Positions 13,007 through 36,638 of a stretch of 47,606 bases of DNA are shown here, piece after piece. The notes under the pieces are model-generated. The model saw nothing but the letters and a program-made list of their open reading frames with translations. It was not told where the DNA came from and ran no database searches. The translations under genes were made by a program, and so were the position numbers. Position 1 is the stretch's first letter. Each line of letters begins with the position of its first letter. The stretch lies in the IMG/VR virus record IMGVR_UViG_3300033567_000099, positions 1-47,606 of that record, one strand, 5' to 3'. The DNA is from a virus.

Positions 13007-13390
13007 ATGATGTTAACTAAACCGTTTGACGACAAGCAATTGTCCGCAGCGAAAGCATTGTTGAATCAGGTAGGTGTGCCAACTAACATCGTCGGCTATC
13101 ACTTCCTCGCATACGCCATGGTTGCAGTGTATCTGAATTTGGCAGTAAGTATGGACCCAAAGTGCTATTTCACGAAAGAGATTTACCCTCAAGTGGCAAC
13201 GAGATTCAACTCTACCTACGCGACAGTGGAACGGTGCATCCGCTATGCACTTCGGGAGACTTGGCTGCGTGGCGAACGGGAGACATTAAAAGCGTTTTTT
13301 CCGGGTCATACCGTGTCTAAACCTATACGTGCCTCCCACTTTTTAACTAGGCTCGCAAACGAATTAGAGCTTCAGCTTAAAGGGAGTTAG
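13007..13390 (+). CDS. Stand-alone Spo0A C-terminal (effector) domain protein
   Basis: This 127-residue protein matches the DNA-binding effector domain of Spo0A, the master regulator of sporulation, over nearly its whole length and without a receiver domain. Conserved blocks are GVPTNIVGYHFLAYA (GVPAHIKGYxYLREA in Spo0A), FTKEIYPQVATRFNST (SITKxLYPDIAKKFNTT), VERCIRYALRETWLRG (VERAIRHAIEVAWSRG) and the C-terminal SHFLTRLANEL. In the recognition helix the Ser-Arg that precedes VER in Spo0A is Ala-Thr here, so DNA specificity may differ. Without a receiver it would be phosphorylation-independent: a constitutive mimic or a competitor at 0A boxes (inference). ATG follows GAGGTG. It sits between the clamp and the 3D-domain gene. 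Confidence 0.88.
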   Translation: MMLTKPFDDKQLSAAKALLNQVGVPTNIVGYHFLAYAMVAVYLNLAVSMDPKCYFTKEIYPQVATRFNSTYATVERCIRYALRETWLRGERETLKAFFPGHTVSKPIRASHFLTRLANELELQLKGS

Positions 13391-31250: not shown

Positions 31251-31727
31251 ATGTTGGATGACATCCTAAACGCAGTAGTGGCTGATATGCAAGCCGATGT
31301 GGCACTCGCAGAGGTGACGTCGTATCACAAAGTGGAGGGTATGGTACCGGGTCTCAAACCCACCATCAGCGTATGGGTACCAAAACAGAAGTTCACTGAG
31401 TACACGAACGACGAGGACGAGTGTAATGCTGAAATCCACATAGGTGTCAGCGTGCACGACATGCAGCCGGAACGCGGAGAGCAACACGTGCGCACACTGG
31501 CCAAAGAAATTCGCCTGCTGCTAACAGCAGATGATCACACACTTGGCGGGTTGATAGACGACAGTTTCCTAAGCGAGTGGGAATTCGAAAGTATCAAACC
31601 TGACCAAACGTTGATGTTGCACCTCGGCGAAGCAGTTTGGCAGGTGAAATATTACGAGCCTCGAAACCGCACGGTCACACCGGGCGAGAGTATGGACGAG
31701 CTCGATTTCACTGAAACCATCGTATAA
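31251..31727 (+). CDS. Tail terminator-like protein
   Basis: This 158-residue acidic protein stands between the gpG-like gene and the tail sheath, where PBSX-like and Mu-like phages encode the tail terminator or neck protein. It has an alpha/beta pattern (DDILNAVVADMQADVALAEV, ISVWVPKQKFTEYTNDEDECNAEIHIGVSVHD, EAVWQVKYYEPRN) consistent with that fold. No diagnostic motif was found, so the call depends on place. Confidence 0.6.
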   Translation: MLDDILNAVVADMQADVALAEVTSYHKVEGMVPGLKPTISVWVPKQKFTEYTNDEDECNAEIHIGVSVHDMQPERGEQHVRTLAKEIRLLLTADDHTLGGLIDDSFLSEWEFESIKPDQTLMLHLGEAVWQVKYYEPRNRTVTPGESMDELDFTETIV

Positions 31728-31750: not shown

Positions 31751-33154
31751 ATGCAAGAACCACAGTATGTTGTACCTAGAGTAGACATTCTGGAGCAAGC
31801 AGCAGCCCAGAATCCTCAGACAACGCTTCAATTAAATCGAATCGGTGTCGTAGGGACTGCGTCATGGGGACCAGTAAACATGCCTACGCGTGTCTACACG
31901 GACTCCGCATGGACGACTCAGTTCGGCGGCTACAAAGCTGGTTTGACAGGTTATCCAACCGTTCATGGCGCATTCCAGCAAGGCACTCAGGACATCACCT
32001 TTATACGTATCGCAGGCGCTTCAGCAAAACGGGCAACGTTGACTCTCAATGACGCTACTCCTGCTGCGTCATGGGTGGTTAGTGCGCTGTATCTAGGCAC
32101 TAAGTCTATCCAGGTATCAACCCAAGCTGGGACAACCGCTAACACGACAAAACTTATCGTCATTGCGGACGGTAAATCCGTCACCTATGACAACCTTACC
32201 AATGCAAATGTAGCCGCAACGGTGGTAGACCCAAATGTTTCAGTGGCCGTTTCAGCTGGCGCCGTAAACCAGCCTGCACCAATCGCAGCAACTCCACTCG
32301 CCGGTGGTGACGATGGTTCCAACGCACAAGACAGCGACTACGTTGGCACGGTGAATGCAGACGGGACAGCAACAGGTCTCGCGCTAATGGCTACTGTGCC
32401 AGTCAGCATCGTGTTGGCCGCTCAGCAGACGGATGCAACTGTTCAAGCTGGAGTTCTCGCGCATGCAATGAATCAGACCGTGCGCCAAGGTCTTCGGATG
32501 GCTGTAGCGTCCATGCTTTTAGGTCAGAGCGTTACTACCTCTGCAACTGCCATGGCCAACCTGTCTGGGATGCGGGGAATCATGGCGTTCAATGCAGTCC
32601 AGCCATCGGACTATGCACCCAACACGTGGGTTGTTCCGGATGGTTATTACGCTGGTGTCTTGGCGCAACTAGACGCAAACGAGAGCCCATCGCACAAAGT
32701 TGTGCAGGGGATCAGTTCCGTCCAATACACGATGTCTGATGACGACGTGTACACGGCCACACAAGCACGGATGTCGCCGATTACACTAGACCCGCTCACC
32801 GGCAATTTCATCATCCGGAATGGCGTCGACATGTTCGTGATGCCCTCCAGCGGTGGAGACGATTGGTCACAAATCAATGTTCGTCGAGAATTCGACAAGC
32901 TAGAACAAGAAATTTACGTCGGCACTCAATGGGCGCAGTCGAGCACGGATCCGGCTCTACCTTCTCTTCTCTCGACGTGGATAGACGAACATCTGCGCAA
33001 GGCGAAGATAAACAATCAGGAGATTACCGATTACAAAGCCACGACGGCCTATCGGGATCCCAATAACGCCCGCCGTGTGGTCACACAGATAAGCGTCCAA
33101 CCAGACTTCGCTGCGGACTTCATAGACAACTACATTTCCCAGTGGAACGGGTGA
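31751..33154 (+). CDS. Tail sheath protein (contractile tail)
   Basis: This 467-residue protein is the contractile sheath, proving a myovirus-type tail. The N-terminal strand PQYVVPRVDILEQAAAQNP, then IGVVGTASWGPVN and FGGYKAGLTGYPTVHGAFQQG, match PBSX XkdK-like sheaths. The C-terminal domain that interlocks subunits includes ARMSPITLDPLTGNFIIRNGVDM, SSGGDDWSQINVRREFDKLEQEI and FAADFIDNYISQW. A beta-rich insertion (about 100-190) is likely surface-exposed. It is followed not by the tube directly but by a ferredoxin-like gene. Confidence 0.92.
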   Translation: MQEPQYVVPRVDILEQAAAQNPQTTLQLNRIGVVGTASWGPVNMPTRVYTDSAWTTQFGGYKAGLTGYPTVHGAFQQGTQDITFIRIAGASAKRATLTLNDATPAASWVVSALYLGTKSIQVSTQAGTTANTTKLIVIADGKSVTYDNLTNANVAATVVDPNVSVAVSAGAVNQPAPIAATPLAGGDDGSNAQDSDYVGTVNADGTATGLALMATVPVSIVLAAQQTDATVQAGVLAHAMNQTVRQGLRMAVASMLLGQSVTTSATAMANLSGMRGIMAFNAVQPSDYAPNTWVVPDGYYAGVLAQLDANESPSHKVVQGISSVQYTMSDDDVYTATQARMSPITLDPLTGNFIIRNGVDMFVMPSSGGDDWSQINVRREFDKLEQEIYVGTQWAQSSTDPALPSLLSTWIDEHLRKAKINNQEITDYKATTAYRDPNNARRVVTQISVQPDFAADFIDNYISQWNG

Positions 33155-33160
33155 TAGGTC

Positions 33161-33412
33161 ATGGTTGAAATCCTTGACCACTGTCCTAGTTGCGGTGTGT
33201 GTACGCGCCCTGGCGTGTGTCCTACGAACGCTATCAAAGTTGATTACGGCAAGACGTTTATTGGCGAGGGGTGCATTGACTGTGGTCTGTGCATCCCTGT
33301 TTGTCCGATAGGAGTTATCAAGTGGCAAGACGCTGCAGTCGACGAAACGCCAATACTCGACGTGTTAGAACGAGAGGAGGATAACGATGGGAAGACCAGT
33401 ACAGGGGCATGA
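33161..33412 (+). CDS. Dicluster [4Fe-4S] ferredoxin-like protein in the tail operon
   Basis: This 83-residue protein has two Cys motifs of a bacterial 2[4Fe-4S] ferredoxin: C8-x2-C11-x2-C14-x5-C20-P, and C38-x2-C41-x2-C44-x3-C48-P. Between them NAIKVDYGKTFIGEG supplies the usual strand pair. The acidic C-terminal tail (DVLEREEDND) is encoded across the ribosome binding site and first codons of the tube gene, which it overlaps by 26 bases. It starts 6 bases after the sheath stop, with GGGTGATAGG as site. All eight ligands are present, so cluster binding is likely. Ferredoxins normally carry electrons; why one sits between sheath and tube is unknown. It could be a structural Fe-S protein of the tail or an auxiliary metabolic gene. 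Confidence 0.85.
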   Translation: MVEILDHCPSCGVCTRPGVCPTNAIKVDYGKTFIGEGCIDCGLCIPVCPIGVIKWQDAAVDETPILDVLEREEDNDGKTSTGA

Positions 33413-33827
33413 CGTGTCAGTTAGCGTCATGGGGCCGAATGGACCTGAGCTTGTTGGTGAGTGGCAAGAAGTCGATATCAACATCACCAATGACGACGAG
33501 GAGTACATGGAGACCAACAGCCGCATGCCGATATATCTTGACGGCGATATCAAACTGGATGGCAAGGTGAAGCGCGGATGGTTGGATCTGAACATCGTAG
33601 CGGTGACTGTGGGAACCGGCAATCTGCAGCCGGGACAGCCGATACCTGCGACGCCGAGATTCGTTATCACCTGCAACATCAACGCTCCAACGAAAGGGCT
33701 TAGTGGGCGATATCAATTGACAGGCGTTCGCTTTGACAAGCTGGCCATTGCCATTAAAGCCGGCAAAGCAATTGTCGATGAGGACTTGACGTACAAAGCT
33801 GAGGGGCTCATTGAGTCCGCATCATAA
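33387..33827 (+). CDS. Tail tube protein
   Basis: This 146-residue protein follows the sheath module and has the beta-barrel pattern of XkdM-like contractile tail tubes: QGHDVSVSVMGPNGPELVGEWQEVDINIT, RMPIYLDGDIKLDGKVKRGWLDLNIVAV, and the strand-rich end TPRFVITCNINA, LAIAIKAGKAIVDEDLTYKAEGL. The ribosome binding site (AGAGGAGGAT) lies inside the end of the ferredoxin-like gene, tying expression of the two together. Confidence 0.85.
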   Translation: MGRPVQGHDVSVSVMGPNGPELVGEWQEVDINITNDDEEYMETNSRMPIYLDGDIKLDGKVKRGWLDLNIVAVTVGTGNLQPGQPIPATPRFVITCNINAPTKGLSGRYQLTGVRFDKLAIAIKAGKAIVDEDLTYKAEGLIESAS

Positions 33828-33840
33828 GGAGGGTATTTTA

Positions 33841-34251
33841 ATGCCGCAAATTTACGGGCCGTTAACACTGCCATCAGGCAAGGTCGTTAAGTTCCGTCGA
33901 CCAACGGGGCTAGACCGCATGAACGTCACACAGATGGTGCCTTTAAATCCGGATAACATCATATCCGGAGGGTTGATGATTGACACGTATCTACAAGCGA
34001 AGATGATTACTGAGGTCGATGGTACGTCGGTCGACCCCACGGGGTACAAAAATCTATTCAGCACGTGGGATGACGCCGACGTCCAGTATTACCAAGCGGT
34101 GTATTCCGAGATGTTTGCAATGACGCAAGAGAAGATGGACGACGCAAAGGCGAAGGCAGCTTTTTTGCTCGGCAATACGACCTCTACCGATGGGTCCAGC
34201 TCGGCAAGCGATGCTCTGTTACCGAGTGGATCAGCCTCGACGACGACCTAA
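33841..34251 (+). CDS. Tail assembly chaperone, short form (G)
   Basis: This 136-residue protein lies between tube and tape-measure genes, the standard place of the tail chaperone pair. It begins MPQIYGPLTLPSGKVVKFRRP and continues with GGLMIDTYLQAKMI and ADVQYYQAVYSEMF. The zero-frame end (TDGSSSASDALLPSGS...) is low-complexity. A slippery T_TTT_TTG at 34161 lets a fraction of ribosomes make the longer GT form. Start 33841 follows AAGGAGGG; an upstream in-frame ATG at 33811 lies inside the tube gene. Confidence 0.85.
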   Translation: MPQIYGPLTLPSGKVVKFRRPTGLDRMNVTQMVPLNPDNIISGGLMIDTYLQAKMITEVDGTSVDPTGYKNLFSTWDDADVQYYQAVYSEMFAMTQEKMDDAKAKAAFLLGNTTSTDGSSSASDALLPSGSASTTT

Positions 34252-34358: not shown

Positions 34359-36638
34359 ATGGCCGGTTCAGATTTTACAGTGTCGATGATACTGCGGGCT
34401 GTCAATCAGATGTCTCCTGCGATTCAGCAAGCAGCGAGTCAATTAAGGACACTCCAAAATCAGATTAACCAAGTAAACTCCGTGTCGAACAAAGGAAACT
34501 GGTTCGATAAAGCAATTTCACGGACACAATTGTGGAGCGACAAGTTGGAGACTGTGCAAAAGAGCATGGACAAAATTGTCCGGTCCGGTGAGAAAGACTT
34601 GATGACCGGCGGAATCATGGCGCTTCCCCTTGTCGGCATGATTAAGTCAGCCGCTAATGTGCAACGGACTCAAATGTCTCTTGAACTGGCGGGATTCACC
34701 AGTGGTCAAGTAAACCAGCTTACCGCACAGGCTCAGCAAACCATGAGGAAGACCATGTTTGGCACGGGTGATGTTCTGGGAATTGACCTTGCCCTATCTC
34801 AAGTCGGTATGAACTATCAAAAAACCCAAAGCGTTGGAAAATCGGCTACATATTTGGCGGAGCTCGAAGCGAACCGGAACGGCGCTGATCCACAGGCAAC
34901 GGCTAAACAGTTCGCGCAAATGGCCGAGCAACTGCAAATCAGCATGGATCCGGCAAAGGTCAAGCAACTGGCCGACCAGGTAAACAGAATATCAACAATC
35001 ACCAGCGCGAGTGTCGCAACATTGTCCGACAGTTCTAGGTATTTCAACCTTGTGGGTACCATCCAGGGACTTAAACCGTCGGATATTATGCTTACTCAGG
35101 GATTGGCAGCACGGTATGGACTCGAGGGTTCAATCGGTGGTACGAATCTTAAGGATTTCTTTGAGCGTCTAAACCCAACGCTACACATGAACACGATGAT
35201 GGGCAAACCCATTGTCAATGCATTTGCTTCGATGGGCTGGTTAAAAGGAGTCAAGCGCGACAAGAAAGGCAATGTTGCGGGCATTACCGGCGACGTTTTC
35301 CATGACGCGAAGGGTAACTTGGTTGGGGCAGCTCAGATTTTCAGCGTCATTGCGCAGTCATATCAGAAGATGGGGAACAAAGAACAATTCAATGGCCTAA
35401 TGACGCGGATTTTTGGACAGCAAGGGCAGGCAATTGCGGCGGCTGTGGCGCAGAACCCACAATACTTTGGGATGTTGCAACAACAAATGGGCAAAGTGCC
35501 GACCGTCAATCAGAGTGTCACTAAGTTCCAGGGCACGACCAATCAACAGTTTCACGCTTTTATATCTACGTTATCTGATTTCGGCAGACAGGTCGGAACC
35601 ATGCTCCTACCGTCATTGACGGGTTACCTAAAACAGTTAAACGCAAACATGCCGAAGATACAGACGTTCATTGACAAACACAAGCAACTTCTCAAAGCGC
35701 TGGCAGAAGTGTGGGCCGGGTTGGCCGCGTTCAAGATAGCATCTGGCGTGGCGAAAATCGCTGTTGCGGCACCGATAAGGGAAATTGCAGGCGCCGCTAG
35801 ATTTGGCTTGGGTGCATTAAGAGGAGGATTGAAGGGAGCTAGAGCGGTCTCCATGGCCGGGCGTACCTATCGAGAGTTCAGACAGATTGGTGCTGGACAC
35901 GGCATGGCTATTGAAGCGGCAATACAGCAGGGTATTGGAATTAAACCGACGGCCACGATTAAAGCGACGGTTAATGCGATGAAGACTCTGGGGTCCGCGA
36001 CAGTCAGCGCGGCCAGTTCGTTTGCCAAAGTTAGCGGGCAGGCGGCGGTGGCAACAGCTCGGTTTATCGCCAATGGCGCAGCAACAATCGCCGTCAAAAC
36101 AGCACAACTGACGGTCGCAGCCGCAAGTAGAACCTGGGCAGCCGTACAATGGCTAGTCAACGCAGCACTTACAGCCAATCCGATAGGACTTATTATTGTC
36201 GGTATAGGAGTCTTAATCGGCGCCATTGTGCTTATGGTCACGCATTGGAAAACGGTAGTCAACTGGTTGAAGCAAGCATGGACTTGGTACTCCAATCTCG
36301 GTGACAAAGTGAAAATATTGATTGCGATATTTGTGCCGTTTATCGGAATGCCCGCACTTATCATCAGCAAGTGGGGGGTAATTTCGAAGTTCTTCCAGCG
36401 GATGTGGAAAGACATATCGCCGATGATACAGGGATTAGAACACTTCTTCGACCTCGGTGGTGGTTCGGGAGGTGGCGGCTCACCGGTCTTAGCTGCGCGC
36501 ATAGGCGGAGGTGGAAACGTCCAGATGACTAACCACTATTACATCCAGTCCACGGATCCGAAGCAGGCAGCGAATGAAGTGGGCAGAACGCAGCAGAAGT
36601 ATATCGATTCTCGCTATCCGATACCCGCGGTGCGATAG
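34359..36638 (+). CDS. Tail tape measure protein
   Basis: This 759-residue protein sets tail length and is injected or released on infection. Features are long amphipathic and coiled-coil helices at the N-terminus (AIQQAASQLRTLQNQINQVN), the phage-related TMP core (QRTQMSLELAGFTSGQVNQL, LALSQVGMNYQKTQSVGKS), an Ala-rich helical middle, and two hydrophobic segments near 606-630 (NPIGLIIVGIGVLIGAIVLMV) and 650-670 (ILIAIFVPFIGMPALIIS). The Gly-rich GGGSGGGGS linker near 705 precedes a short C-terminal domain. By the usual rise per residue it predicts a tail of roughly 110 nm. AAGGAGG site. Confidence 0.9.
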   Translation: MAGSDFTVSMILRAVNQMSPAIQQAASQLRTLQNQINQVNSVSNKGNWFDKAISRTQLWSDKLETVQKSMDKIVRSGEKDLMTGGIMALPLVGMIKSAANVQRTQMSLELAGFTSGQVNQLTAQAQQTMRKTMFGTGDVLGIDLALSQVGMNYQKTQSVGKSATYLAELEANRNGADPQATAKQFAQMAEQLQISMDPAKVKQLADQVNRISTITSASVATLSDSSRYFNLVGTIQGLKPSDIMLTQGLAARYGLEGSIGGTNLKDFFERLNPTLHMNTMMGKPIVNAFASMGWLKGVKRDKKGNVAGITGDVFHDAKGNLVGAAQIFSVIAQSYQKMGNKEQFNGLMTRIFGQQGQAIAAAVAQNPQYFGMLQQQMGKVPTVNQSVTKFQGTTNQQFHAFISTLSDFGRQVGTMLLPSLTGYLKQLNANMPKIQTFIDKHKQLLKALAEVWAGLAAFKIASGVAKIAVAAPIREIAGAARFGLGALRGGLKGARAVSMAGRTYREFRQIGAGHGMAIEAAIQQGIGIKPTATIKATVNAMKTLGSATVSAASSFAKVSGQAAVATARFIANGAATIAVKTAQLTVAAASRTWAAVQWLVNAALTANPIGLIIVGIGVLIGAIVLMVTHWKTVVNWLKQAWTWYSNLGDKVKILIAIFVPFIGMPALIISKWGVISKFFQRMWKDISPMIQGLEHFFDLGGGSGGGGSPVLAARIGGGGNVQMTNHYYIQSTDPKQAANEVGRTQQKYIDSRYPIPAVR

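Follow-up and report, generated by a model that had tools for sequence, protein, structure and literature searches.

A predicted 2[4Fe-4S] ferredoxin encoded between the sheath and tube genes of contractile-tailed phages

Results

A ferredoxin-like gene overlaps the tail tube gene

A small gene encoding a 2[4Fe-4S] ferredoxin-like protein, hereafter Fd, runs through a family of viruses with contractile tails that infect bacteria of soil and sediment, in a slot between the tail sheath and tail tube genes, and comparison of these loci indicates that Fd is probably part of the tail machine. The stretch of DNA analysed here (the window) covers all 47,606 bases of its IMG/VR record and encodes a phage with a terminase, a Mu-type portal, an E-type capsid and a contractile tail. 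The gene lies on the plus strand at 33161-33412, starts with ATG and encodes 83 aa (MVEILDHCPSCGVCTRPGVCPTNAIKVDYGKTFIGEGCIDCGLCIPVCPIGVIKWQDAAVDETPILDVLEREEDNDGKTSTGA). It is separated from the end of the sheath gene (33154) by a 6-base gap, and it shares its last 26 bases with the tube gene, which starts at 33387. The sequence-only reading had described this arrangement of an eight-cysteine ferredoxin-like gene of 83 codons, with the same gap and overlap, and it is borne out by the open reading frame, by Pfam and by the predicted fold.

Fd matches three Pfam families, all above the curated cut-offs: Fer4_7 (1.3e-8), Fer4 (3.7e-8) and Fer4_9 (3.7e-7). An AlphaFold2 model, with pLDDT >90 across residues 1 to ~54, is predicted to adopt a ferredoxin fold, with a TM-score by target length of 0.83 and an rmsd of 1.5 when compared with 1FCA, the 2[4Fe-4S] ferredoxin of Clostridium acidurici. 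The C-terminal ~27 residues are acidic and predicted to be disordered. The eight cysteines (Cys 8, 11, 14, 20, 38, 41, 44 and 48) form two motifs that would provide the complete ligand set of a bacterial 2[4Fe-4S] ferredoxin. Motif I is spaced CX2CX2CX5CP throughout the clade of the window, and CX2CX2CX3CP in the other members of the slot. The host's own ferredoxins are remote from the phage protein, with profile scores of 37 versus 136 bits. The window Fd had no match in PHROG, and a structure search of viral models found nothing.

As for the neighboring genes, all on the plus strand, the sheath (31751-33154) was identified by its match to PHROG 279, tail sheath (1.5e-22); its match to the Pfam sheath C-terminal domain falls below the cut-off. 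Upstream lies a tail terminator (31251-31727; PHROG 37, 9.5e-6). The tube (33387-33827), first placed by position, is supported by a predicted fold matching the diffocin tube CD1364 and other phage tail tubes, the model itself being mediocre (pLDDT 64). It is followed by a probable tail assembly chaperone (33841-34251), XkdN-like by position, which is conserved in relatives, with a start codon inferred from the sequence, and by a tape measure protein (34359-36638) identified by profile matches. Outside the tail genes, window positions 13007-13390 encode a 127-aa phage protein that is little more than a DNA-binding domain (Pfam PF08769, 2.2e-18), that of Spo0A, the master regulator of sporulation.

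The Fd start codon overlaps the sheath stop codon (ATGA) in four loci, all in the clade of the window; in one of them, L003, the overlapping ATG is the first of two possible start codons. At the other end, Fd overlaps the start of the tube gene in most loci, L029 and L070 having no such overlap. A strong Shine-Dalgarno sequence for the tube, AGGAGG, sits within the Fd gene. The Shine-Dalgarno sequence of Fd itself is weaker than that of the tube in the clade of the window, and strong in other clades. Consequently, Fd may be made in fewer copies than the tube in the clade of the window and be a minor product there. Read-through from sheath into Fd is not proposed, the frames being in register over two stop codons in the window but out of register in L003.

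The ferredoxin slot is conserved across Bacillota

We gathered relatives from viral contigs and bacterial genomes, using the sheath as query first and the tube next. An eight-cysteine ferredoxin was found between sheath and tube in 18 distinct loci (the window, L003, L004, L007, L026, L028, L029, L032, L033, L034, L042, L044, L050, L060, L070, L072, L088 and L091), a count that takes in two near-identical copies (L034 and L044) and one locus cut by the end of its contig (L050). Named hosts are Desulfosporosinus acididurans M1 (L004) and Alicyclobacillus fastidiosus (L007). The loci come from four or more groups at the level of class or order within a single phylum, Bacillota, the groups searched being the order of G002 and the classes of G003, G463 and G318. 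All of the 12 bacterial genomes recovered with tube-only searches carry Fd. A scan of IMG/VR with the motif CP[GAS]CGxCx3CP, which is blind to neighboring genes, returned five genuine eight-cysteine ferredoxins in the slot out of five.

All eight cysteines are kept in 18 of 18 loci, and because these homologues retain them at the same position next to the same genes, the presence of a ferredoxin in this slot is not due to chance. This conserved synteny with sheath and tube marks Fd as a likely component of the tail module. The sequence-only reading had proposed looking for homologues in the same slot and would have been contradicted by homologues confined to host metabolic operons; on this point, the 18 loci speak in its favor. 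Beyond the cysteines and the usual ferredoxin residues there is almost no invariant position among the slot proteins, and no conserved interface is visible. Three loci (L088, L072 and L091) have Ser or Thr in place of the proline that follows the first cysteine in most slot ferredoxins, with the eight cysteines intact.

With the window Fd alone as query, no homologue was found in viral contigs, and named phages gave only one weak, unrelated match. Matches to a slot ferredoxin in phage collections were discarded, since they were mostly unannotated, bacterial-looking faecal fragments. Eight of ten slot members weakly matched PHROG 16249 and 8732.

Fd has diversified together with sheath and tube

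Trees of Fd, sheath and tube contain the same three main clades. Distance matrices are correlated between Fd and tube (Mantel r 0.76) and between Fd and sheath (r 0.55), with p = 0.0001 for each, mostly via the main groups. The Fd core shows a dN/dS of about 0.07-0.2 in close pairs, pointing to purifying selection. When slot proteins and host ferredoxins are placed in one tree, based on only ~50 columns, a single origin of the slot proteins is neither rejected (p-AU 0.36) nor demonstrated.

Some relatives lack the gene. Sheath and tube are directly adjacent, with no Fd, in the close relative L002 (a 4-kb fragment whose tube is 84% and sheath 61% identical to those of the window), in the clade L011-L014 and in the distant phage MMB025. 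No ferredoxin match was found anywhere in L011 and L014, the longer records. Since the tails of L002 and L011-L014 are otherwise similar, their lack of the gene argues against an obligatory structural role; as judged from gene content, Fd is dispensable in some tails of this kind, or replaced there. Two of these relatives contain related open reading frames between the tube and chaperone genes (L011:10434-10838 and L012:6719-6901), which are absent in L013.

A headless element retains Fd

One bacterial genome, G066, contains an element (L074/L082) that keeps an intact Fd between sheath and tube. A repressor of the S24/HTH type, encoded on the opposite strand, an amidase, a Mor-type activator and a small protein resembling a holin come first, and tail genes follow in the order terminator, sheath, Fd, tube, chaperone, tape measure, LysM, hub, spike, W, J and Gp48. 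Gene order and Pfam revealed no terminase, portal or capsid in the element, which is flanked by host genes (by inspection yicC/gmk/rpoZ/coaBC/metK beyond the radical SAM genes described below); the other loci with enough flanking sequence do have head genes. With a contractile tail, regulator and lysis genes and neither head nor packaging genes, the element has the gene content of a putative R-type tailocin. It is the only headless element that we found, and it could be young. Its Fd has an omega of 0.20 relative to the phage relative G132, similar to that of the terminator (0.16), which is likewise kept.

It is hard to see what a ferredoxin that serves metabolism at infection time would do here, and the element is therefore the strongest clue to function, favoring the tail particle or its assembly as the site of action. 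Taken with the 18 loci in the same slot and the co-diversification with sheath and tube, this retention gives good support to the earlier view that the gene is not random cargo. The narrower suggestions of that reading, that Fd may be a structural Fe-S cap, a redox sensor or an electron carrier of the virion, stay hypotheses.

The baseplate genes of the G066 element are followed, where a tail fiber would be expected, by two radical SAM proteins flanking a 326-aa protein rich in Cys-X-Cys repeats (CNCVSRTGTGG-like) on the minus strand (L082:14198-17557), resembling a modified-peptide cassette tied to the tailocin. An identification of the G066 sheath with DSY3957, a solved sheath from Desulfitobacterium hafniense, was dropped, as DSY3957 is absent from the PDB matches listed.

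Discussion

We consider it reasonably probable that Fd is a dedicated iron-sulfur protein of the contractile-tail module, because the predicted fold, the ligand set, the conserved slot, the overlap or near-overlap with both neighboring genes, purifying selection, the clades in common with sheath and tube, and survival of the gene in a headless element all point that way. How it would serve the tail is less certain. It may, as we tentatively propose, be incorporated into the tail as a minor component, at the sheath and tube or close to them; less probably, it is needed for tail assembly alone. Fd would be expressed late in infection from the sheath-tube operon, have its clusters assembled in the protein and contact sheath or tube, perhaps via its variable, disordered C-terminal tail. 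The clusters would mainly stabilize a small rigid domain; redox sensing is possible but unsupported. In the boldest version, which we regard as a long shot, contractile tails of one lineage, present in Bacillota phages and in at least one tailocin, would use many 2[4Fe-4S] copies as a working part, making an iron-loaded, possibly redox-gated injection machine.

The same protein could instead be a late-expressed electron carrier, an auxiliary metabolic gene or moron that supplies host or phage enzymes with electrons and is simply carried along by the tail operon. Its fold is nearest to electron-carrier ferredoxins, it retains all cysteines and the usual ferredoxin motif residues as a working carrier would, and many of the hosts belong to groups that include anaerobes. 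We nevertheless find this improbable: unlike mobile morons, the gene has a slot fixed across deep divergence, it is kept in a headless tail element that neither replicates nor infects, and no redox partner enzyme was recognized among the window proteins scanned. The core charge of the slot proteins, -2 to +3 and thus near neutral or positive, also differs from the -6 to -8 of clostridial carriers, an approximate yardstick of three sequences. As a test of carrier function the acidic surface is only suggestive, because one host ferredoxin is likewise positive. An action on the cell unrelated to the tail, through competition with host ferredoxin or exclusion of other phages, would suit a small, soluble protein with a variable tail that is missing from some relatives as accessory genes are, but is very unlikely given the fixed position, the main clades in common with sheath and tube, and the headless retention.

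Less probable than a carrier, although still ahead of a host-directed function, is a redox- or oxygen-gated switch whose clusters sense conditions and control tail assembly or contraction, for example on leaving the reducing cytoplasm. An oxygen-sensitive [4Fe-4S] cluster does occur in another tail protein, lambda gpL (PMC10721106). The strict conservation of the eight cluster ligands fits such a switch, but the existence of relatives without the gene does not. Alicyclobacillus, moreover, is aerobic, which also speaks against it. Least credible, and already largely refuted, is the idea that Fd is a bystander, kept only because translation of sheath and tube is coupled through its reading frame. 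Overlap with both neighbors in several loci is what one would expect of such a frame, but coupling needs neither eight conserved cysteines nor a dN/dS near 0.1-0.2, some relatives have the tube gene immediately next to the sheath gene, and L029 and L070 have no overlap between Fd and tube.

The preferred reading, a dedicated iron-sulfur protein of the tail module, matters since few protein machines are as well studied as sheath and tube, and a two-cluster ferredoxin partner is undescribed in the searchable literature. Were Fd in the particle, it would bear on why tails have iron-sulfur clusters, a question posed since lambda gpL, and on the amount of iron carried by phages. With the headless element, this could be tested in a system free of infection. 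In the literature searched, which was open-access and left most subscription papers outside, no ferredoxin was described alongside sheath and tube, in a tailocin or among virion proteins. Cautiously put, Fd has a known fold whose setting, conserved and linked to the tail, is new, and it is a real, apparently undescribed component of the tail module.

Several known systems resemble Fd in part. Lambda gpL and the tail-tip protein of RcGTA contain a single iron-sulfur cluster of unknown function (PMC10721106), that of gpL-type proteins being a [4Fe-4S] cluster (Tam et al. 2013, as cited in PMC10721106). Like gpL, Fd would be an iron-sulfur protein from a phage tail operon, but gpL belongs to the tip of a non-contractile tail and has a four-cysteine C-terminal domain. 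Fd has no such domain on a tail-tip protein: it is free-standing, with eight cysteines in 83 aa and two predicted clusters, and is encoded beside a contractile sheath and tube. Auxiliary metabolic ferredoxins (PHROG 16249) are, like Fd, phage-encoded. They are carried by cyanophages, for example. A ferredoxin of this kind would act in host metabolism during infection, from a gene outside structural modules. The position of Fd within the tail operon is fixed, and a headless element retains it. The clostridial-type 2[4Fe-4S] ferredoxins (Pfam Fer4/Fer4_9; PDB 1FCA and 1CLF) have the same fold and eight-cysteine ligand set, from which Fd is set apart by its sheath-tube location, the X5 spacing in motif I (in the clade of the window), its near-neutral core and its extra, variable C-terminal tail. 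Finally, R-type tailocins such as the diffocin of Clostridium difficile have the same plan as the G066 element, with regulators, a lysis gene and a contractile tail but no head; unlike them, the G066 element has Fd between sheath and tube, as well as two radical SAM genes and a Cys-rich protein after the baseplate genes.
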